Of a stretch of DNA of 35,645 nucleotides, positions 6,304-35,574 are shown in pieces. The notes beneath the pieces are model-generated. The model was not told the DNA's origin, ran no database searches, and saw nothing but the letters and a program-made list of their open reading frames with translations. Within the stretch, counting starts at the first letter, position 1, and every line of letters starts with the position of its first letter. The translations under genes and the position numbers were made by a program. This DNA comes from a virus. The stretch covers positions 1 to 35,645 of IMG/VR virus record IMGVR_UViG_3300011113_000271; one strand, 5' to 3'.

Positions 6304-6489
6304 CTACTTCTTCTTCTTGTCTTTAATCGACCAAACTTGCGACACGCCATAGAGAACAGCGCCAGACACAACAGGCGTCGCTGCTTCAGCCAACTGATGT
6401 GACTCAGCCTCTGATACACCTATTGTCAAAAGACCTCCGGCTACTAACGTAAGGAGGTGTCGGATTACCGATGCGATAATAAATTCCAT
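6304..6489 (-). CDS. Small holin, Pam3-gp28-like (61 aa)
   Basis: Two hydrophobic segments (about 3-23, IIASVIRHLLTLVAGGLLTIG, given here as IIASVIRHLL and TLVAGGLLTIG, and 36-54) and a lysine-rich C-terminus (KDKKKK). The pattern RHLLT-x3-GGLL-x2-G followed by VWSI-x-KK is that of the Pam3-gp28-type holins. These oligomerise in the inner membrane and open it to time lysis. It overlaps the secreted protein gene by 25 bases and is the last late gene. Assignment rests on size, topology and motif. Confidence 0.7.
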   Translation of the reverse strand: MEFIIASVIRHLLTLVAGGLLTIGVSEAESHQLAEAATPVVSGAVLYGVSQVWSIKDKKKK

Positions 6490-7307
6490 GCTATGCTTCC
6501 TGCTTCTTTAGTTTTAAACACAGACGAACTGCAACGACGCTCGGATGGAGGCGTGAATGAGGGGGACATGTTGCGCGAAGTATCTTTAACGCCGTTGCAA
6601 TTCATCCATGACGACCAATAAAACCGCAAGTCGCACTGTCTAGTGTTTCGATAGAACCTTCTGATGTCAACAGGTTTTGAAAGTTCCTCTCCGTCAAGGT
6701 CGGCAATGCAGGGAGAGGACAATCCTGGGTCGGAACCGTGTCGCTCACACACCGTGCCTTTAACGCAACCTCCCTTAAGTGGGTTGTCCACAAGAACACA
6801 AGCAGGCACAGCAACAGATACAATATCAAGCATAGCTTTCCGAGCTGGTCCATAAAGGTCACACTCCAGACAAGGCGATACATAACAGGTAAGCGGTCCC
6901 TTGGAGGCCGCAATACGTCTCTTAAACCGCTCTACAACGCGCTGAAACTTTCGCCTGACGTCAGACCTAGGCTTGAGCATTTTACGGCTCGCAGAGGCTG
7001 CAGACTGCTTATAAAGCACATCAGACGGCTCGCACCTGTTGTTCCTCATGCAGGGAGAGTTTATGAGGTGGATGCGAAGAATCTTTTCCTTGTTGCTACG
7101 AAGGATTCGCTTGCCACACTCGCACTTCTCACCAAACGACTCCTCAAGCCAGCCAGTAATAATAGGCTTGCCGTCCCAAGTACGCATCACATTGTCGCAA
7201 TCCCAAGTACGATTGCACAAACCTATATAACTAACTCCCTGCGCGATAACCGTGCGCCACGGTGCTAAAACAGATACACAAAGTATCGTTGTAAGCAGTA
7301 ACCTCAT
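6465..7307 (-). CDS. Secreted cysteine-rich protein in the lysis cassette (280 aa)
   Basis: The first 23 residues are a Sec signal peptide (MRLLLTTILCVSVLAPWRTVIA, cut before QG). The mature part has 16 cysteines, many in pairs (CNRTWDC, KCECGK, CMRNNRC, TCYVSPCLEC, GGCVKGTVC), so it probably folds with disulfides outside the cytoplasm. Hydrophobic strands each end in polar motifs (ILRIHLINSPC, CYVSPCLECDL, CVLVDNP, CDLRFYWSSWMNC), a rhythm reminiscent of TIM-barrel glycosidases, with Glu148 a candidate acid; this is a guess. Position between the coiled-coil membrane protein and the holin suggests a role in wall or envelope breakdown. ATG 7307 overlaps the upstream stop (ATGA) behind TTGGAGAA. 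Confidence 0.75.
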   Translation of the reverse strand: MRLLLTTILCVSVLAPWRTVIAQGVSYIGLCNRTWDCDNVMRTWDGKPIITGWLEESFGEKCECGKRILRSNKEKILRIHLINSPCMRNNRCEPSDVLYKQSAASASRKMLKPRSDVRRKFQRVVERFKRRIAASKGPLTCYVSPCLECDLYGPARKAMLDIVSVAVPACVLVDNPLKGGCVKGTVCERHGSDPGLSSPCIADLDGEELSKPVDIRRFYRNTRQCDLRFYWSSWMNCNGVKDTSRNMSPSFTPPSERRCSSSVFKTKEAGSIAWNLLSHR

Positions 7308-7546
7308 TTCTCCAATACCTTGTCCAGCTTTTGCTCTATGCGCTCAAGCCGCGACTTAATAGTACTAAGCTCAACATTGGCAACCTGTACCTGCATCGTA
7401 AGGTTGTATTTGCTCTGCTCCAACTCCTTAAGAGAGTTCTTCACCTGCCGATAATCCATGCCAACAAGCGATATGATGATGCCAATAACTCCCTTAAGCA
7501 AAAGGTCAAGCCAGTAACGAAACTCAGTAATGTCGTGCTCTGTCAT
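7304..7546 (-). CDS. Membrane protein with one span and coiled coil (80 aa)
   Basis: A single membrane segment (about 14-31, LLLKGVIGIIISLVGMDY) is followed by a long amphipathic coiled coil to the C-terminus (KNSLKELEQSK ... IEQKLDKVLEK). This topology is shared by inner-membrane spanin subunits and by small holin-like phage proteins. It lies between the DUF5675 gene and the secreted protein, with ATGA overlaps on both sides, so it belongs to the lysis cassette. The exact role is not decided by the sequence. Confidence 0.75.
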   Translation of the reverse strand: MTEHDITEFRYWLDLLLKGVIGIIISLVGMDYRQVKNSLKELEQSKYNLTMQVQVANVELSTIKSRLERIEQKLDKVLEK

Positions 7547-7935
7547 ACAATCTCAAGCGCTGCTTCCTCCACTCCAAGCATCTCTGTCATGAAGTTGGCG
7601 ACCGCAGCTCTACTTGAGAGGATTGCACTGTTCGTTCCAACTGTTCCAAACATCAAACCTAAAAGAATACAACCGTGAGTATCTATATGTGTGTTTCCCG
7701 CATGGATAAGAATCTCACTACGGTCAGGTACATCTTGCACCTTAAAACACTCTCCAAATTTAGGAGACGTATGCCGCTTGATAACGTACTTTCCTTTTGG
7801 AATGCACGATACCATGCGCTCATTGTCTCTCCACTTATCCTCAAGCGTAAGAAACATTGGCCTATCATTGATACAGAGAACGCCAAACGTAGCGTCATTG
7901 TGCTCTGTAACTCTGATGAGCCTTAGCTGCTTCAT
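7543..7935 (-). CDS. DUF5675 family protein, candidate wall hydrolase
   Basis: The 130-residue protein matches DUF5675: FLTLEDKWRDNE (28-39), CIPKGKYVIKRHTSPKFGE (44-62), FKVQDVPDRSEILIHAGNTH (64-83) and IDTHGCILLG (84-93). The His-rich segment ending THGC (86-89), with upstream His78 and His83, resembles the catalytic S/T-H-G-C signature of L,D-transpeptidase-like folds. In many phages DUF5675 genes sit in lysis regions where no other endolysin is found, as here. Enzymatic cleavage of peptidoglycan is therefore a reasonable but unproven inference. ATGA overlaps join it to the tail fibre gene and to the next gene. Confidence 0.8.
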   Translation of the reverse strand: MKQLRLIRVTEHNDATFGVLCINDRPMFLTLEDKWRDNERMVSCIPKGKYVIKRHTSPKFGECFKVQDVPDRSEILIHAGNTHIDTHGCILLGLMFGTVGTNSAILSSRAAVANFMTEMLGVEEAALEIV

Positions 7936-9377
7936 GCTTCTAGTGCCGCAACGCGAGCTTCAAGCAGTTCTACTTTAGCATTAAGTTCTTGAATTGCTTT
8001 AAATGCTAATGCAACCATATTGCCATAATGTAAGGCATCTGGTTCATTTTCATTATTATAAACAACAAATTCAGATAATCCTTGCGCGTCAACTTCTTCT
8101 GCTATCAATCCTGCAAACTGAGTTAATCCGTCATTTATCCCTTTATAATAAACTGGCCGTAATGCTAAAACATCTGATAATCCTTTGTTATAATCAATAA
8201 CATCAGTCTTATAACGTAGAGAGGATGTAGAGCGTTTTACATATCCATCCGCTTGAACAAAAAGATTTGCAGCACTAGCGGTTGTATCATTATAAGGAGA
8301 TCCTGCGGCTCCTCCAAAGTTTATAGCTCCATCATTTCTAACAGAAAATAATCCAGTAGTTGCAGAGTTTCTAACTGCGATTGCAGCATTTGAAGAAGTT
8401 GAATCTGATCCAACAACATGCAATCGAAAAGTTGCATCAGGAGTAGCTCCTATTCCAACATTCCCATTAGCAATAATACGCATTCTTTCAGTAAGAGATG
8501 CACTTCCATCTGCACATGTAAAAAATCGCAATTCTCCTGGCATATCACCACTGGCACCAGGTGTTCCACCAGAATGTCCAGTGATTGCGGCAGCAGCATC
8601 GTAACCAGTACCATTAGCTCCTGAGAAATAAATGCCACCTAACTGATCTCCTGATGTAACTATTGTATTAGTTCCAACAGCAGCACCACGAGATTTACGC
8701 AGATATAATTGTGATCCAGTAGTATCAGCACTGAATCTTGTCTCTAAAAGCTGTGTTCCAGTTCCTTGAACATCAAAATCAACACTTGGTGCAGTAGTTC
8801 CAACTCCAACACGGTTGTTAGTACGATCTACAAATAGTGGAGCAGTAGCGATATTAATTATTTGAAAGTTTGTGCCATCGTACACAACGCGAACTATATC
8901 GTTTGCTTTAAACTCATTGCCTACTAATGCAGTTCCTTGACGCTGCAATGTTGTTGCGGCAGTTCCATCAATTTTTAATGTAGCAGCAGCTCCGTTTGCA
9001 GCATTAGCTTTAAACGTATATTGAGCACCAGTCACAAGTGCCGTAATAGTTGGAGTGGCAGTTACAGTAAATGCAGTTGACGTGCCGCCAGTAGTTCCAA
9101 GCCAAACAAAAGCTCCGTCTTGAACTTGTCCTGCAGACGCATAATTGTTACGTGCAGTCGCATTAGCTACGTTGGTATGTTTAAACCCACCCATCGGAAG
9201 GTCAGCAGTAGCAGCGTTCTGACCATCCTTAGCGATACAGTTGTTAATGCCTGCCGCAAAGTCGTTATCCTGCGTGTCGTGACGGCCAGCCTCGATGCCG
9301 ATGCCTAGAGAAGCGTCACCAACCCAACCGCCTGTGGCGTTGTTACCCTTTGTGTATGTTCCCGCATTCCAACTCAT
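7932..9377 (-). CDS. Tail fibre with C-terminal S74 intramolecular chaperone
   Basis: 481 residues. The N-terminal ~100 residues (GNNATGGWVGDASLGIGIE) probably attach to the virion. A middle module (about 105-175, ending VRVVYDGTNFQIIN) is of the phage fibre type also seen in the protein at 24756. The C-terminal ~97 residues are an S74 peptidase/chaperone: SSLRYKTDV at the cleavage site (Ser about 386), FAGLIAEEV, and a terminal coiled coil (LNAKVELLEARVAALEA). S74 domains trimerise fibres and spikes and then cut themselves off. Base use is more AT-rich than in neighbouring structural genes over 8000-8900, suggesting exchange of receptor-binding parts. Confidence 0.88.
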   Translation of the reverse strand: MSWNAGTYTKGNNATGGWVGDASLGIGIEAGRHDTQDNDFAAGINNCIAKDGQNAATADLPMGGFKHTNVANATARNNYASAGQVQDGAFVWLGTTGGTSTAFTVTATPTITALVTGAQYTFKANAANGAAATLKIDGTAATTLQRQGTALVGNEFKANDIVRVVYDGTNFQIINIATAPLFVDRTNNRVGVGTTAPSVDFDVQGTGTQLLETRFSADTTGSQLYLRKSRGAAVGTNTIVTSGDQLGGIYFSGANGTGYDAAAAITGHSGGTPGASGDMPGELRFFTCADGSASLTERMRIIANGNVGIGATPDATFRLHVVGSDSTSSNAAIAVRNSATTGLFSVRNDGAINFGGAAGSPYNDTTASAANLFVQADGYVKRSTSSLRYKTDVIDYNKGLSDVLALRPVYYKGINDGLTQFAGLIAEEVDAQGLSEFVVYNNENEPDALHYGNMVALAFKAIQELNAKVELLEARVAALEA

Positions 9378-9386
9378 TGTGCTCTC

Positions 9387-12300
9387 CTACTTGCGAATGT
9401 TCGCTTTGACTTTTGGTATATAGTTAATAGTTTCCTGCGGAACTCCTATCTTCGATGCGTATTTTACCATGTTCTTAAACGTGGGAGATACGTTCTTTTT
9501 ACGAAGGTACGATACCGCTCTGTCTACGTTGCCTGGACCCCAGTTATAAGCAGCGAGTGCAAGGTCTGTGTCTTTGTACTTGTCTTTCATCTGTTTCAAG
9601 TACTGCATTCCACCACGCACATTCTCTTCAGGGTCATAAGGATTGATACGCAAGTGCGCCGCAGTTCCTGGCATAATCTGCATCAACCCAATCGCACCCA
9701 CAGGACTAATCTTTGTATGGTCTCCTGTGGATTCCGTCATAATTACAGCACGAGTGAGTGCGTCTACCTTCTTAAGCAACGCATCATACGGCTTGTTTGT
9801 GGCAAACTGCTGCAGAAGTCCTCGCTGCTCGCTCTTGTTCATACGAAAGGCTGTTTTAAGAGCGTTAACGCGCTCCTGTGACCAGTTCTTTCCTACAGGT
9901 GGAGCAGGAGGTTCTTTGGTTTTCTTTTGCAACTGTGGCCGCAATACAGGCTTTCCAGACACGGATGCCTTACGCACGTTGCCTTGAGGCTGTGGTCCTC
10001 GCGCTCGCAACTTAGCTTGCGCTGCAGCTACCTTGTCACTTGAAGTCCTCTCGGCTGCCTGTGCGCTCGGAATTAACACCTGCGATATCTTATCAAGTGT
10101 CGACTGCTGCGGAGCTTCAGCCGCACCGATGATATCATCAAGTGACATAAGCTCAGGCTTGCGAGGCTCTTCTTTCTTTGGCTGTTGCTTGCCAACAACA
10201 ATCTCTGTTGCAGGCGCAGCTCCTACAGCAGCAGTTGGAGCAGTACCTTTTGATACAAGTGCGTCAGTAAGCGTGGAACCTTGAATATCCTTCTTGGCTT
10301 TTCCAGAAGCCTCAACAATTCGTCTACGAACAAATGCACTCTTAGCTCTGTTTGGATCTCTAAGAGCAGCAACTAAACTCTCATTGAGCAAAGCAGCGTC
10401 TTTGTTTTGCTTCGCAAGACGTGCTACGCGTGCAGCAACACCAACACCAGCAACTAAAGCGCCAGCAACTGCGCCAGGAACTCCTTTATAGAGACCTCCT
10501 GTTGCTGCTGCGCCTCCAATGGTAGCGCCAATTCCAGTAAGAGCCATTCCAGAGGTTTGACGAATTTTATCTCTAAAGAATTGTCTCAGTCCCGCTTCTA
10601 CAGCTTTTGCAGATTCCCCACCAGCATTTGCACGCGCTGAAATAGCTATTGTTGCAAGTTCTGGAAGATCCTTTTGACCAAAAGTATCAAGACCTAATTT
10701 GTAGCCAACAGCCTCTTTTGCTTCTTTGCGAGCCTCAAACACTTCTTTAGCTTGGAGAAGAGTTTGCTTTGCAGCTTCAAGAGTACGCCTATATTTTGTG
10801 CCAATAGGAGTTTGAGAGATAAGATCGTTGATTCGTCTGTCAGCAAACAATGCAAGGTTGTTGTTAATCCAATCAATTTTAGCATTAACGTCACGACCAA
10901 GTTTATTGAACTCAGCAAATTTGGTTCCAAGAACATCGCGCAGTTGTTCTACGCTGTACCCTGTTTGACGCATGAACTGTTCAAAAGCAGCAACATTACT
11001 TGTTACGTTTGCGACTACGTTTTCAGGTGAGATAACGGTGCTATCTGTAAGATTCTTTATGTATCCCTTGTGGTAGGTGTCCCACATATTCGACCAGAAA
11101 TCGTTTGCGCGCTGATACTTCGACGCAATCGTTGGATCGCTCATTATCTTTTGATGAAGAAGAGCCGCAGCTTCTCCAGCAAGCAATGCTTCATCGCTGT
11201 TGCCAGCAGCTTGCAGCTTGCGAGATTCTTCAAGTAGTGCGCTACGAGCATTGACTAATTGCCGCGCTGTTACTTGTTCAGCACTAACTGCTGGTCCTTT
11301 TACCAACTCTGCAGTTACGTCTTTTTCACCTGCCTTGCGAAGAACATTAAGAATTTGACTAATGCGAGAACTTAAACGACCCTTTTCTTCAGGGTATAAT
11401 GTCTTTTCAAGGTCAAGAAGGTCTTTGTTTAATGTACCCTTATCAAGTAGAAGCTCGTCGGGAACTTTTTCGTATAACTTGTTACCAATAGAGTGTGCGC
11501 GAGTAATACGATCCTTAATGTTCTGTTGAATCTGATCACCAACAACAGCGCGTTTTGCAGGATCCGGTTCTGTTGCAATCTTAGCAAGTTCTTGCTCAAG
11601 AATTGCCATTTGCTTTTTTTCTTGAGTAAAAAAGTCTTCAGGTCCAACGCCGCTTGTTGCCTTTTCGGCTGTTTGTCTAAGCGCAGAGAGTTCTGGTTGT
11701 TGAACAAGTTCGTCAGTTGTAAGAGTCTTAGCAAGTGGATTAGTAGATGTGCTTTGCTTTGTTATTGCATCATCAATTTTCTGTTCAGTCACTCCCAAAG
11801 ACTCAAGAGTATTTGCAACTACAGCATCCGCTTCGCCTTGCGAAATTGACGTAAACTTCTTTGATAGTGTGTCGTAGCCACGCTTAGCAGCAGGACCAAC
11901 ACCAGTTGCTGCAGCACCCAACGCTCCAAGTAGAGTTCCTCCAGCAGCGCCAGCAACGCCACCAGTAGCGGCACCAGCAATACGTTGCTTAATTGCCTCG
12001 CCAACAGTTGCATCTGCCGATGGTTCTGCTGCGCCTGCACCAAACAATGCAGTCTGCGCTGCGCCAACAGTAGCAAGGTCTCTAAGTCTAGTGCCAATGC
12101 CTACTTTCTCTAAGGGACCAAGAGCACCAGCAGTTTTGAGAGCTGCATTCCGTGCCGCAGCAAGTTCTGCACTTGTTGTTCCTAGTAATACTTTTTCTGC
12201 AACAGTCGGAGCAGTTCGTCCAGTGCGAGCAACTTGACCAGCGTAACCAACACCTCCAGAAAGAAGCGCAGGAATTAACGAGCCTCCTATCTCTCCAACG

Positions 12301-12743
12301 AGCTGTGCGCTCGGAACAGTGCCTGCCATGCGACGCTGTTCAGCAAGTAACTGTCCATACGTTTGCTCAGAGAATGGCGCAAGTGCTGCAGCCGTAAGCT
12401 CGTTTCCAAAGCCAAATGTAGAACCTTCACTTATTCCACCAAGCAAAGAGCCAAGCGCCTCTTGATTGCGGATTTGCTGCTGACGCAAGCGTATATCAGC
12501 CTGAGACCCAGGAACGTATGCTGGAGCAGCTCGTCGCGCTAATATACCTGCTTCGATACGCCGCTTTTCAGACTCAGGCAGCAAGAACGGATTTACAGGC
12601 GTAGATACTGAAGTCTCGCCAATAGGCGTCATCATCTGCGGAGACAAGGCGCTCGTCAGTCTAGACGACAGCAACGTGCCAGTATTGTATGCACTATCAG
12701 TTGAGCTTGCCGCTATAATGTCGTCTAGTGACGTAAAAGCCAT
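9387..12743 (-). CDS. Internal virion protein with lytic transglycosylase domain (1118 aa)
   Basis: The largest gene. Residues ~993-1118 form an SLT-type transglycosylase: IMTESTGDH with catalytic Glu (about 1004), GAIGLMQIMPGTA (about 1017-1029), NVRGGMQYL and ALAAYNWGPGNV. The N-terminal third is Ala/Gly-rich with hydrophobic stretches (GVGYAGQVA, VAGAAGGTLLGALGAAATG); the middle is long helical coiled coil. The arrangement matches ejection proteins of podoviruses (T7 gp16, P22-type internal proteins) that leave the capsid, cross the envelope and locally open the wall. It lies between two other internal proteins and the tail fibre, the usual place. Confidence 0.88.
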   Translation of the reverse strand: MAFTSLDDIIAASSTDSAYNTGTLLSSRLTSALSPQMMTPIGETSVSTPVNPFLLPESEKRRIEAGILARRAAPAYVPGSQADIRLRQQQIRNQEALGSLLGGISEGSTFGFGNELTAAALAPFSEQTYGQLLAEQRRMAGTVPSAQLVGEIGGSLIPALLSGGVGYAGQVARTGRTAPTVAEKVLLGTTSAELAAARNAALKTAGALGPLEKVGIGTRLRDLATVGAAQTALFGAGAAEPSADATVGEAIKQRIAGAATGGVAGAAGGTLLGALGAAATGVGPAAKRGYDTLSKKFTSISQGEADAVVANTLESLGVTEQKIDDAITKQSTSTNPLAKTLTTDELVQQPELSALRQTAEKATSGVGPEDFFTQEKKQMAILEQELAKIATEPDPAKRAVVGDQIQQNIKDRITRAHSIGNKLYEKVPDELLLDKGTLNKDLLDLEKTLYPEEKGRLSSRISQILNVLRKAGEKDVTAELVKGPAVSAEQVTARQLVNARSALLEESRKLQAAGNSDEALLAGEAAALLHQKIMSDPTIASKYQRANDFWSNMWDTYHKGYIKNLTDSTVISPENVVANVTSNVAAFEQFMRQTGYSVEQLRDVLGTKFAEFNKLGRDVNAKIDWINNNLALFADRRINDLISQTPIGTKYRRTLEAAKQTLLQAKEVFEARKEAKEAVGYKLGLDTFGQKDLPELATIAISARANAGGESAKAVEAGLRQFFRDKIRQTSGMALTGIGATIGGAAATGGLYKGVPGAVAGALVAGVGVAARVARLAKQNKDAALLNESLVAALRDPNRAKSAFVRRRIVEASGKAKKDIQGSTLTDALVSKGTAPTAAVGAAPATEIVVGKQQPKKEEPRKPELMSLDDIIGAAEAPQQSTLDKISQVLIPSAQAAERTSSDKVAAAQAKLRARGPQPQGNVRKASVSGKPVLRPQLQKKTKEPPAPPVGKNWSQERVNALKTAFRMNKSEQRGLLQQFATNKPYDALLKKVDALTRAVIMTESTGDHTKISPVGAIGLMQIMPGTAAHLRINPYDPEENVRGGMQYLKQMKDKYKDTDLALAAYNWGPGNVDRAVSYLRKKNVSPTFKNMVKYASKIGVPQETINYIPKVKANIRK

Positions 12744-31374: not shown

Positions 31375-31580
31375 TTGTCCTTTTTCATTGGTTTTTGTTT
31401 AGCTCGTATCGCCGCATCGTACTCATCTTTACAAAAAACATACGATAATGGGGTATCAATCAAAACATATTTGTATTTTGGTAGTTTGACAGTAGGACCA
31501 GCGCCGCCTCTAAACCTAGTTATTCCTTCAGGACTCCATTCCATTTCTATACGAATTTTAAGCGGTCCTTGATAACTCAT
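31371..31580 (-). CDS. Small hypothetical protein before terL (69 aa)
   Basis: Strong GGAGGAGAG ribosome site, ATG at 31580 overlapping the previous stop (ATGA), and GTGA overlap with terL. Basic C-terminus (RAKQKPMKKDK). No family recognised. Its place between DUF551 and terL suggests a packaging accessory, but nothing in the sequence shows it. Confidence 0.7.
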   Translation of the reverse strand: MSYQGPLKIRIEMEWSPEGITRFRGGAGPTVKLPKYKYVLIDTPLSYVFCKDEYDAAIRAKQKPMKKDK

Positions 31581-31897
31581 CTCTCCTCCTTCGGCGGCTC
31601 AGGTAGCGGCATCCAATGAGTATAACGTTCCTCACTCCCACAGCAGCCACATCCGTTAGAAATAGGATATGCTTCGTTGCCTTTGTAGATACGAGCCATG
31701 TATATGTGTTTTCCCTCGGTATAAATTAAAACCTCATCATTTTCTTCCGGCAGCCGCTCCTTTACGCTGATCCATTGTTGTGCAGCCTTGTAGCCAGCAA
31801 GAAAGGCAACTTTGCTTTCACCCGAAATTGTCGGATCATGGACCGCATACCAGCGACCTAAAAGCCAATCCTCTGCCATCTGCTCAGGCGTTTTCAT
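31577..31897 (-). CDS. DUF551 protein with MKTPEQMAE N-terminal module (106 aa)
   Basis: ATG 31897 overlaps the previous stop (ATGA). Residues 1-38 (MKTPEQMAEDW ... AFLAGYKAA) match the start of the neighbouring protein at 31894-32232. Residues 42-101 are DUF551: WISVKERLPEENDEVLIYTE, a Cys cluster (CGCC, 83-86) and THWMPLPEPP. DUF551 proteins are common accessory phage genes of unknown function. Upstream frame is a shadow. Regulation through translational coupling with its neighbours is likely. Confidence 0.85.
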   Translation of the reverse strand: MKTPEQMAEDWLLGRWYAVHDPTISGESKVAFLAGYKAAQQWISVKERLPEENDEVLIYTEGKHIYMARIYKGNEAYPISNGCGCCGSEERYTHWMPLPEPPKEER

Positions 31898-32232
31898 TTT
31901 GTCACCTTCTTCCAAAGCTCGTAAACAATAAGGCCGCATCCACGCACTAATTCGCCGCCATCATCTTTGGGAAGTATGCCTGGGACCATTACGGATATTT
32001 TGTAATCATCGTTCTCAAAATGAGCGATCATACAATTCAATTCGTCTCTGCCAATTTCTTCAGTTGGCTTGATCAGCTTGTCGGCGTAAGCAAGCTGCTT
32101 CTTTGCGGCTTGCACTCCTTCGGAGTTTAAGCGTCCCGCCTGGTAGCCAGCGAGGAAGGCGTCCCGTGCAAATTCACATTCATCATTGTCCTCTGTCCAT
32201 TCCTCTGCCATCTCCTCAGGTGTCTTAGTCAT
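31894..32232 (-). CDS. Small hypothetical protein sharing the TPEEMAE / FLAGY module (112 aa)
   Basis: Start ATG 32232 lies behind ATTGGAGG. The first ~35 residues (TKTPEEMAEEWTED ... DAFLAGYQAGR) repeat the N-terminal module of the DUF551 protein downstream. The C-terminal part (MIAHFENDDYKISVMVPGILP, VYELWKKVTK) is different and unrecognised. The two genes therefore look like a duplicated module attached to different domains. Confidence 0.72.
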   Translation of the reverse strand: MTKTPEEMAEEWTEDNDECEFARDAFLAGYQAGRLNSEGVQAAKKQLAYADKLIKPTEEIGRDELNCMIAHFENDDYKISVMVPGILPKDDGGELVRGCGLIVYELWKKVTK

Positions 32233-34824: not shown

Positions 34825-35574
34825 ATGCCGAATTATAATTTGCTATCAGACAACCAACTAAAAATGGCTAAGAGCATCGATCTGGGATTCTACAGTGTAA
34901 TACTACATCTTGAGCCAGCGTATACATATAAAAGCCTAAAAACGTGTCCCTGGTCAGGTCAATGCGCTGGATACTGTCTCGGTAACTCAGGACAGATGCG
35001 ATTCGATACCGCACGGAAGGCAAGGATCCGGCGGACTCAGTTATTGGTGGACCATCCTAGCGAGTTTTACGCCGCGCTAGTGCTCGATATATGCAAGGCG
35101 CAACGGTACGCCAACTCCCTTGGGTTGTCGCTCACCGTGAGGCTTAACGGTACAAGCGATTTACGGTGGGAGAACATGGCAGTATCACCAGATGGTAAAA
35201 ACATATTTGAAGTATTTCCGTGGGTTCAATTCATTGACTACACGAAATCAGTTGAGCGAGCACTAACAGTTAACGTTGAGAACTATGATCTAACGTACTC
35301 ACGCAACGAAAAGAGCACGGAAGGGGAGATCGTTGAGATATTAGACAACGGCGGGAAGGTTGCCGTGGTGTTTGATATCTCCAAGGGGGACCCATTACCT
35401 AAAACGTATAAGGTAAATAAGAGGCGTTTTAAGGTAATCGACGGCGATATCTCAGACTTGAGGCACCTTGACCCTCACGGCGTAATCGTGGGGTTACGGT
35501 ATAAGCGCGCTTTCAGTAAAAAAACAGGGAAGTCGCTCAAGATAAAAGCCGGTTTCGTCATTTTAGGTCAATAG
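34825..35574 (+). CDS. GP88-family protein (249 aa)
   Basis: Starts at ATG 34825 after GGGGGA. N-terminal half: LKTCPWSGQCAGYCLGNSG with Cys41, Cys47 and Cys51, ARKARIRRTQLL, VRLNGTSDLRWEN (105-117) and FIDYTKSVERAL (137-148). This combination is the GP88/Gp68-like family of phages, whose Cys triad has suggested an iron-sulfur or radical-SAM-type protein, though no activity is established. The C-terminal ~100 residues (EGEIVEILDNGGKVAVVF) seem an extra beta domain. The last 56 bases are repeated at the start of the window. Confidence 0.82.
   Translation: MPNYNLLSDNQLKMAKSIDLGFYSVILHLEPAYTYKSLKTCPWSGQCAGYCLGNSGQMRFDTARKARIRRTQLLVDHPSEFYAALVLDICKAQRYANSLGLSLTVRLNGTSDLRWENMAVSPDGKNIFEVFPWVQFIDYTKSVERALTVNVENYDLTYSRNEKSTEGEIVEILDNGGKVAVVFDISKGDPLPKTYKVNKRRFKVIDGDISDLRHLDPHGVIVGLRYKRAFSKKTGKSLKIKAGFVILGQ

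Follow-up and report, generated by a model that had tools for sequence, protein, structure and literature searches.

Enzymes of the YkuD fold (PF03734), among them YkuD, LdtMt2, Pgp2, Bd1075 and DpaA, break the L,D bond between meso-diaminopimelate (mDAP) and D-Ala and act as transpeptidases, carboxypeptidases or endopeptidases (PMC12729407; for this and the other articles cited, statements cover the accessible part of the source). PhaLP holds 10 phage lytic proteins with a YkuD domain (PMC8310338), and a YkuD-type lytic domain is thus not new in itself. For the Mu-like phage Martha 12B12, an endolysin was proposed from synteny and a weak HHpred similarity to an L,D-transpeptidase (mBio 2022, PMC9239132). 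The gene at that position is shown here to belong to the family DUF5675 (PF18925) and the idea is thus partly in print already, although the accessible part of that article treats one phage, in one sentence plus methods, with no family name, structure comparison or test. In the literature on YkuD/L,D-transpeptidase endolysins, transpeptidases in lysis cassettes, Microviridae and crAss-like phages, as far as the search reached (subscription papers and preprints lay mostly outside it), no family-level proposal for DUF5675 was found, and the mentions of the family that did appear are plain annotations. Here we analyse the DUF5675 gene of a 35,645-base IMG/VR virus record (IMGVR_UViG_3300011113_000271; this whole stretch is called the window below), for which an original prediction had proposed a candidate for a new endolysin family; any novelty would lie at the level of the family, Martha 12B12 having already been covered.

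Genome comparison and structure modelling predict that DUF5675 is the endolysin in most of the phages that carry it, with a probability of about 0.8. The computed support consists of the fold, an invariant His/Cys pair, a tight cassette with a holin and slot exchange with known endolysins; joined to motif conservation, the two replacements described below and the near-absence of the other lysins tested, it favours the earlier view of DUF5675 as a good endolysin candidate with probable L,D-transpeptidase-like catalysis. If true, a domain without a known function, present in 288 of 50,697 phage records and in at least 593 IMG/VR stretches, would become an endolysin family and supply the endolysin that has been missing from many phages of Vibrio, Bacteroidetes and Campylobacter and of the crAss-like group; a fold that cross-links the wall would have been turned into one that cuts it, and would offer a small Cys-based enzybiotic scaffold whose bond cut differs from those of amidases and muramidases.

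DUF5675 in the slot of known endolysins

The strongest functional evidence for DUF5675 as an endolysin is its replacement at one slot, and both of the swaps were seen in relatives outside the window phage's own clade. In Vibrio phage 1.226.O, the DUF5675 gene is flanked by a gene for a 68-residue protein and a gene for a 160-residue transmembrane (TM) protein. Its sister among the Vibrio breoganii phages, 1.133.O, keeps both of these neighbours (proteins 98.5% and 95.6% identical) and a further sister, 1.228.O, shares the TM gene (95.0% identical); in both sisters, a Peptidase_M15_3 gene (PF08291) lies directly before the TM gene (E 1.4e-21 and 1e-22, respectively), and DUF5675 was not found anywhere in their whole records. 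The DNA flanks of this slot are 90-99% alike and the match breaks at gene edges; between 1.226.O and 1.133.O, it runs at 94% up to the end of the 68-residue gene, breaks, and resumes at the TM gene. This TM gene is common to eight V. breoganii phages at 92% identity or above, six of the eight appearing as DUF5675-positive at 94.9% identity or above, and in phage PVA1 it is placed after a GH108 endolysin. Sister phages that differ at the DUF5675 slot constitute a ready-made genetic test. In 1.228.O, an extra DUF551 gene (PF04448) stands between M15_3 and the counterpart of the 68-residue gene; it is identified by its annotation and immediately precedes the M15_3 endolysin (locus L224, 1948-2142); a DUF551 gene is also present in the window (31577-31939, minus strand).

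The second slot is that of Mu-like phages, where DUF5675 is found in martha 12B12 and ZX4290, GH24 (PF00959) in D108 (lys) and MuM16-1, and GH108 (PF05838) in 1.028.O, MuM16-2 and HS6. Between martha 12B12 and the GH108-bearing 1.028.O, the two downstream genes are 93% and 99% alike, the slot genes are unrelated and the swapped block takes in the preceding gene too. DUF5675 thus resembles the GH108, GH24 and M15_3 endolysins in being a small single protein at one shared position, next to TM genes that sister phages have in common; in sequence, however, it is unrelated to GH108 and M15_3 (both were compared), belongs to another family and presumably cuts another bond. In the window, the DUF5675 gene shares its cassette with a holin, and in relatives a single locus holds either DUF5675 or a known endolysin.

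Other lysin families were sought in 46 records: the window, 19 records of its clade, 20 varied GenBank phages with DUF5675, and six Mu-like controls without it (DUF5675 itself in 20/20 of the GenBank phages versus 0/6 controls). GH24 was found in none of the 40 DUF5675 records and in two of the six controls, GH108 in none of the 40 and in four of the six, and M15_3 in a single DUF5675 record, that of Pseudomonas phage pf16, within the baseplate hub gene adjoining DUF5675. Amidase_2, M15_4 and M23 were absent from all 46 records, a search across records that did not extend to Amidase_3, CHAP, NlpC/P60 and GH25; GH19 (PF00182) was likewise found in 0/46, and as it is silent in the controls too, its absence is uninformative.

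Among 111 loci, 99 had a called DUF5675 gene (the other 12, in which a simple home-made gene caller missed it, were dropped) and formed 31 clusters at 60%; with TM stretches assigned by a hydropathy cut-off, a small TM protein is encoded by the next downstream gene in 20 of the 31 clusters; for control genes of similar size taken from these loci, the count is 6 of 115 (Fisher p 5.6e-12).

The best-known microvirus lyses its host via the E protein; if the prediction is true, DUF5675 would provide microviruses with an enzymatic route to lysis. Among the matches listed, DUF5675 occurs in 20 microvirus-sized records of 4.7-7.2 kb. The microvirus capsid family PF02305 is present in all four GenBank records examined (MW202581, PV067912, MH992181 and PQ007375), in three of which DUF5675 is flanked by the capsid gene on one side and the pilot (or minor capsid) gene on the other; 20 short IMG/VR contigs, also considered as microviruses, were rejected, the capsid family being found in 0/20. 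M15_3 peptidases have been described in the tiny single-stranded DNA (ssDNA) genomes of microviruses and suggested as endolysins (PLoS One 2012, PMC3394797); as argued there, a wall-enzyme gene in so small a genome argues for a late function, although the enzyme in that case is a metallo-peptidase whereas DUF5675 is a Cys protein of predicted YkuD fold. Hydrophobic +1-frame open reading frames (ORFs) lie inside microvirus DUF5675 genes (L012, 92-250; L013, 1850-2044; L014, 3151-3327) and recall lysis genes that arose by overprinting; since L012 and L014 are rich in such ORFs along their whole length, L013 having only two, no claim of overprinting is made.

Fold, conserved residues and proposed mechanism

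The window protein matches PF18925 with 111.9 bits (E 1.9e-32), well past the curated cut-off of 26.7 bits, and carries the motif ILIHAGNTHIDTHGC. An AlphaFold2 model, for which the window protein was aligned with 48 environmental relatives (49 sequences in all), is of very high confidence, with a mean predicted local distance difference test score (pLDDT) of 96.7 and a predicted template modelling score (pTM) of 0.90. Comparison of this model with YkuD folds, the check put forward with the original prediction, came out in its favour: when the 1000 top chains of Foldseek were re-aligned with VIA (996 aligned), the top 38 rows were all of the YkuD fold, with Z between 8.1 and 10.6, and the next row was an unrelated peptidase with Z 2.5. 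Pgp2 comes first (Z 10.6, 2.3 Å, 107 residues aligned), and the other matches include YkuD (Z 9.4), the type VI secretion effector Tlde1a (7uma, Z 9.2), LdtMt2 (Z ~8.8), Bd1075 (Z 8.6) and DpaA (Z 8.2). Sub-threshold profile matches point faintly in the same direction, as Tlde1_dom is the second family at E<=1 in 29 of the 49 members (best 0.0017) and YkuD in 12 (best 0.0042), the next recurring family being found in 2/49.

Residue conservation was scored on 20 GenBank homologues chosen by tblastn and not by motif, the 49-member alignment having been gathered largely by the pattern [DE]TxGCIL[VL]G, so that conservation of that stretch is biased there. Glu32, Pro46, Gly48, Tyr50, His78, Asn81, Gly88, Cys89, Gly93 and Ser108 are invariant in 20/20 homologues, and His78-Cys89 is the likely catalytic pair, judging from this conservation.

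DUF5675 thus shares with the YkuD-fold enzymes the fold (Z 8-10.6) and an invariant His...Gly-Cys. In comparison with them, it falls below the Pfam cut-off of the family, its relatives lack a His before the Gly-Cys, its His and Cys are 11 residues apart in the window protein, and it is a stand-alone phage protein of about 125-156 residues, the window copy having no signal sequence. Tlde1 (PF10908), likewise of the YkuD fold, gives the commonest second profile match; DUF5675, however, scores far under the curated cut-off of Tlde1 and is a phage gene in a holin cassette, whereas Tlde1 is a secreted effector. Three of the crAss-like 'transpeptidase' proteins (cr10_1, cr7_1, cr124_1 and cr116_1) are tblastn relatives of the window protein, and cr116_1 is a strong fold match to it; 'transpeptidase' is an annotation only, and the records examined assign these proteins no lysis role. 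DUF5675 also has a weak fold match in a large viral protein named 'Gene product 88 domain'; the window itself encodes GP88 (PF17338) near its end, at 34825-35574, plus strand.

In the proposed mechanism, DUF5675 would be a soluble endolysin that lacks a signal sequence and is synthesized in the cytoplasm; the holin, whose gene lies later in the cassette, would let it into the periplasm. At the wall, Cys89, with His78 as its activator, would attack the carbonyl of the L-centre of mDAP3 in the mDAP3-D-Ala4 (L,D) bond, as expected by analogy with YkuD-fold enzymes, and the acyl-enzyme would be resolved by water rather than by another stem. The enzyme would thereby sever cross-linked stems as an L,D-endopeptidase and shorten free tetrapeptides as an L,D-carboxypeptidase; the wall would then fail, with a spanin-like protein of 80 residues possibly aiding at the outer membrane. 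For a lysis enzyme of the YkuD fold, hydrolysis is the simplest reading.

The cassette of the window

Four overlapping ORFs on the minus strand, at 6304-7935, make up the lysis cassette that had been predicted. In order along the run, the genes encode the tail fibre, DUF5675, the 80-residue TM protein, a secreted protein of 280 residues and the holin, with overlaps of 4, 4, 4 and 25 nucleotides; these and the gene of the one canonical wall enzyme are as follows.

7543..7935, minus strand: DUF5675 (PF18925, phrog_1501), 130 residues, proposed YkuD-fold Cys endolysin, without signal or TM stretch
7669..7704, minus strand: codons from His78 to Cys89 (H-A-G-N-T-H-I-D-T-H-G-C), holding the invariant His/Cys pair
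7304..7546, minus strand: 80-residue protein with an N-terminal TM stretch and a coiled-coil-like tail; putative inner-membrane spanin-like or accessory protein
6465..7307, minus strand: 280-residue secreted Cys-rich protein, modelled as a TIM barrel like those of GH5/clan-A
6304..6489, minus strand: 61-residue holin, Phage_holin_10 (PF23987, Pam3 gp28 family)
7932..9377, minus strand: tail fibre gene directly upstream of the DUF5675 gene, with a 4-nucleotide overlap
9387..12743, minus strand: 1118-residue virion-type protein with a C-terminal SLT transglycosylase domain (residues 996-1084, ~9492-9758)

Relatives of the DUF5675, 80-residue, 280-residue and holin genes recur in 129, 88, 78 and 78 loci, respectively (the loci overlap and are non-independent), and this recurrence means that the cassette is not there by chance. 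Among records with a related terminase, 19 of 31 have DUF5675 and 12 do not; loss of the gene from the latter was considered and rejected, since the three longest are fragments that end before the cassette and thus give no evidence of loss, the other nine being fragments of 12-15 kb.

The small holin of the original prediction passes the Phage_holin_10 cut-off narrowly (E 1.7e-6, 28.4 bits, cut-off 27) and has one TM stretch by hydropathy. The membrane/coiled-coil protein has one TM stretch at residues 11-31, after which comes a long tail with a heptad-like pattern; its PHROG matches are weak and none is named spanin (phrog_6179, of unknown function, E 1.3e-4). In a Pfam scan of 40 ORFs of the window, the sole canonical wall enzyme is the SLT domain (PF01464) of the 1118-residue protein; the earlier statement that no wall enzyme can be seen besides the virion transglycosylase holds for known families only, and the 280-residue protein, for which the model is a TIM barrel of GH5 type, is the main rival in this phage.

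Weighing the alternatives

Several observations weigh against an endolysin role. With Foldseek alone, the DUF5675 model found nothing in the PDB at E<=0.001 (the best L,D-transpeptidase was at 0.32), and two DUF5675 profiles, run against the PDB by sequence alone, picked up no L,D-transpeptidase and chance matches only. The window protein falls below the Pfam cut-off of YkuD, with no match at E<=1, and scores 12.1 bits against Tlde1, for which the cut-off is 30.1. The nearest solved fold, Pgp2, is an enzyme that we take to be an L,D-carboxypeptidase rather than a lytic endopeptidase. The full YkuD signature is [S/T]HGC; the THGC noted earlier is indeed present in the window protein, but position 87 is His in 0/20 GenBank homologues and the full S/T-H-G-C is not kept, so that THGC is not a feature of the DUF5675 family and, of the two catalytic residues first named, Cys89 is retained whereas His87 gives way to His78. 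The 40 DUF5675 records of the lysin search are non-independent, 20 of them belonging to one clade or lineage, and the IMG/VR records may be fragments; pf16 has a second, M15_3-type lysin gene; and the microvirus records with DUF5675 that were examined contain no identifiable holin. The remaining adverse points are the 280-residue neighbour and the virion-like setting of some DUF5675 copies, each of which belongs to an explanation of its own.

In the window phage, the 280-residue protein (6465-7307) might be the main wall cutter, exported by the Sec route and held until the holin triggers, with DUF5675 as an auxiliary wall enzyme. Its N-terminus resembles a signal, with a hydrophobic stretch at residues 3-22, and its model (alignment of 45 members, pLDDT 89.8) is an eight-stranded barrel with alternating helices, that is, a TIM barrel; 'Cys-rich', the original description, is accurate in that it has 17 Cys and undersells that fold. 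In VIA, the model aligns mostly with GH5 mannanases, which head the rows (3wh9, Z 14.6, 3.1 Å, 224 aligned, 9% identity), and with further glycosidases resembling clan A, although TIM barrels score high Z with many unrelated enzymes, and the best Foldseek match is CtCel5E (E 7.6e-4). In GH5 and clan GH-A, a Glu acid/base follows strand 4 and a Glu nucleophile follows strand 7; in the 45-member alignment, Glu148, which directly follows strand 4, never varies, nor do Asp174, Glu188, His190, Asp203 and Asp205, and the invariant acids at strand 7 are Asp203 and Asp205, not Glu. No glycosidase catalytic family was found among the Pfam matches at E<=1 of the 45 members and no consistent PHROG family emerged; a PDB sequence search gave nothing better than E 0.43. 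From its model, the protein is possibly a new glycosidase family, and the window phage may carry in it a second wall enzyme that could be the lytic one here, which makes the argument from elimination weak in this phage. Despite its relatives in 78 loci, however, the protein is essentially limited to the clade of the window (four weak matches, to E. coli phages, in 50,697 records) whereas DUF5675 is widespread without it, and its substrate could be an outer polysaccharide; we consider it unlikely to be the main wall cutter.

Alternatively, DUF5675 might modify the wall without breaking it, by L,D-transpeptidation, D-amino-acid exchange or trimming, and thus serve superinfection exclusion or the poisoning of wall synthesis, lysis coming from elsewhere. 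The nearest solved folds are indeed those of transpeptidases, carboxypeptidases and the effector Tlde1a, Tlde1 is the best recurring sub-threshold family, and YkuD enzymes are credited with transpeptidase and carboxypeptidase besides endopeptidase activities (PMC12729407). Against this, DUF5675 stands in for a GH108 muramidase in one swap and for an M15_3 peptidase in the other, the neighbouring TM genes being the same, and the large majority of DUF5675 records are without any tested alternative lysin; we regard this explanation as quite improbable. A role in the virion, opening the wall at entry, is suggested by Pseudomonas phage pf16, in which DUF5675 (locus L220, 3968-4399) has baseplate wedge genes on one side and, on the other, a gp5-like hub/lysozyme gene with a score for M15_3 as well, by Ralstonia phage RP31, in which a DUF5675 domain lies inside a 1251-residue protein, and by the window gene itself, which comes after a tail fibre gene. 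Some copies thus look virion-associated, that of pf16 perhaps being a virion enzyme, and the two exceptions fit a wall enzyme used at entry in some phages. Most copies, however, are stand-alone genes beside small TM genes, DUF5675 sits in the endolysin slot of Mu-like and V. breoganii phages, and the annotation of Cellulophaga phi39:1, made by virion proteomics, does not mark the DUF5675 gene as structural; as a general account, entry is very improbable. The endolysin reading of DUF5675 remains preferred.

Under a broader proposal, DUF5675 would form a class of Cys-based L,D-endolysins that took over the YkuD transpeptidase fold, is found across phages, 5-kb ssDNA microviruses included, and passes freely between them; in the clade of the window it would work with a second, new lytic enzyme, a disulfide-rich, pre-secreted TIM-barrel glycosidase, peptides and glycans both being cut; as a whole, it is tentative and somewhat doubtful.

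The C-terminal half of the 280-residue protein is weakly similar (25%, E ~3e-3) to a kuravirus region, in Escherichia phage Paul gp91 (locus L222, 4058-5029) and vB_EcoP_IMEP8. That region adjoins COOH.NH2 ligase and amidoligase genes, a possible hint at an operon for wall or surface modification.

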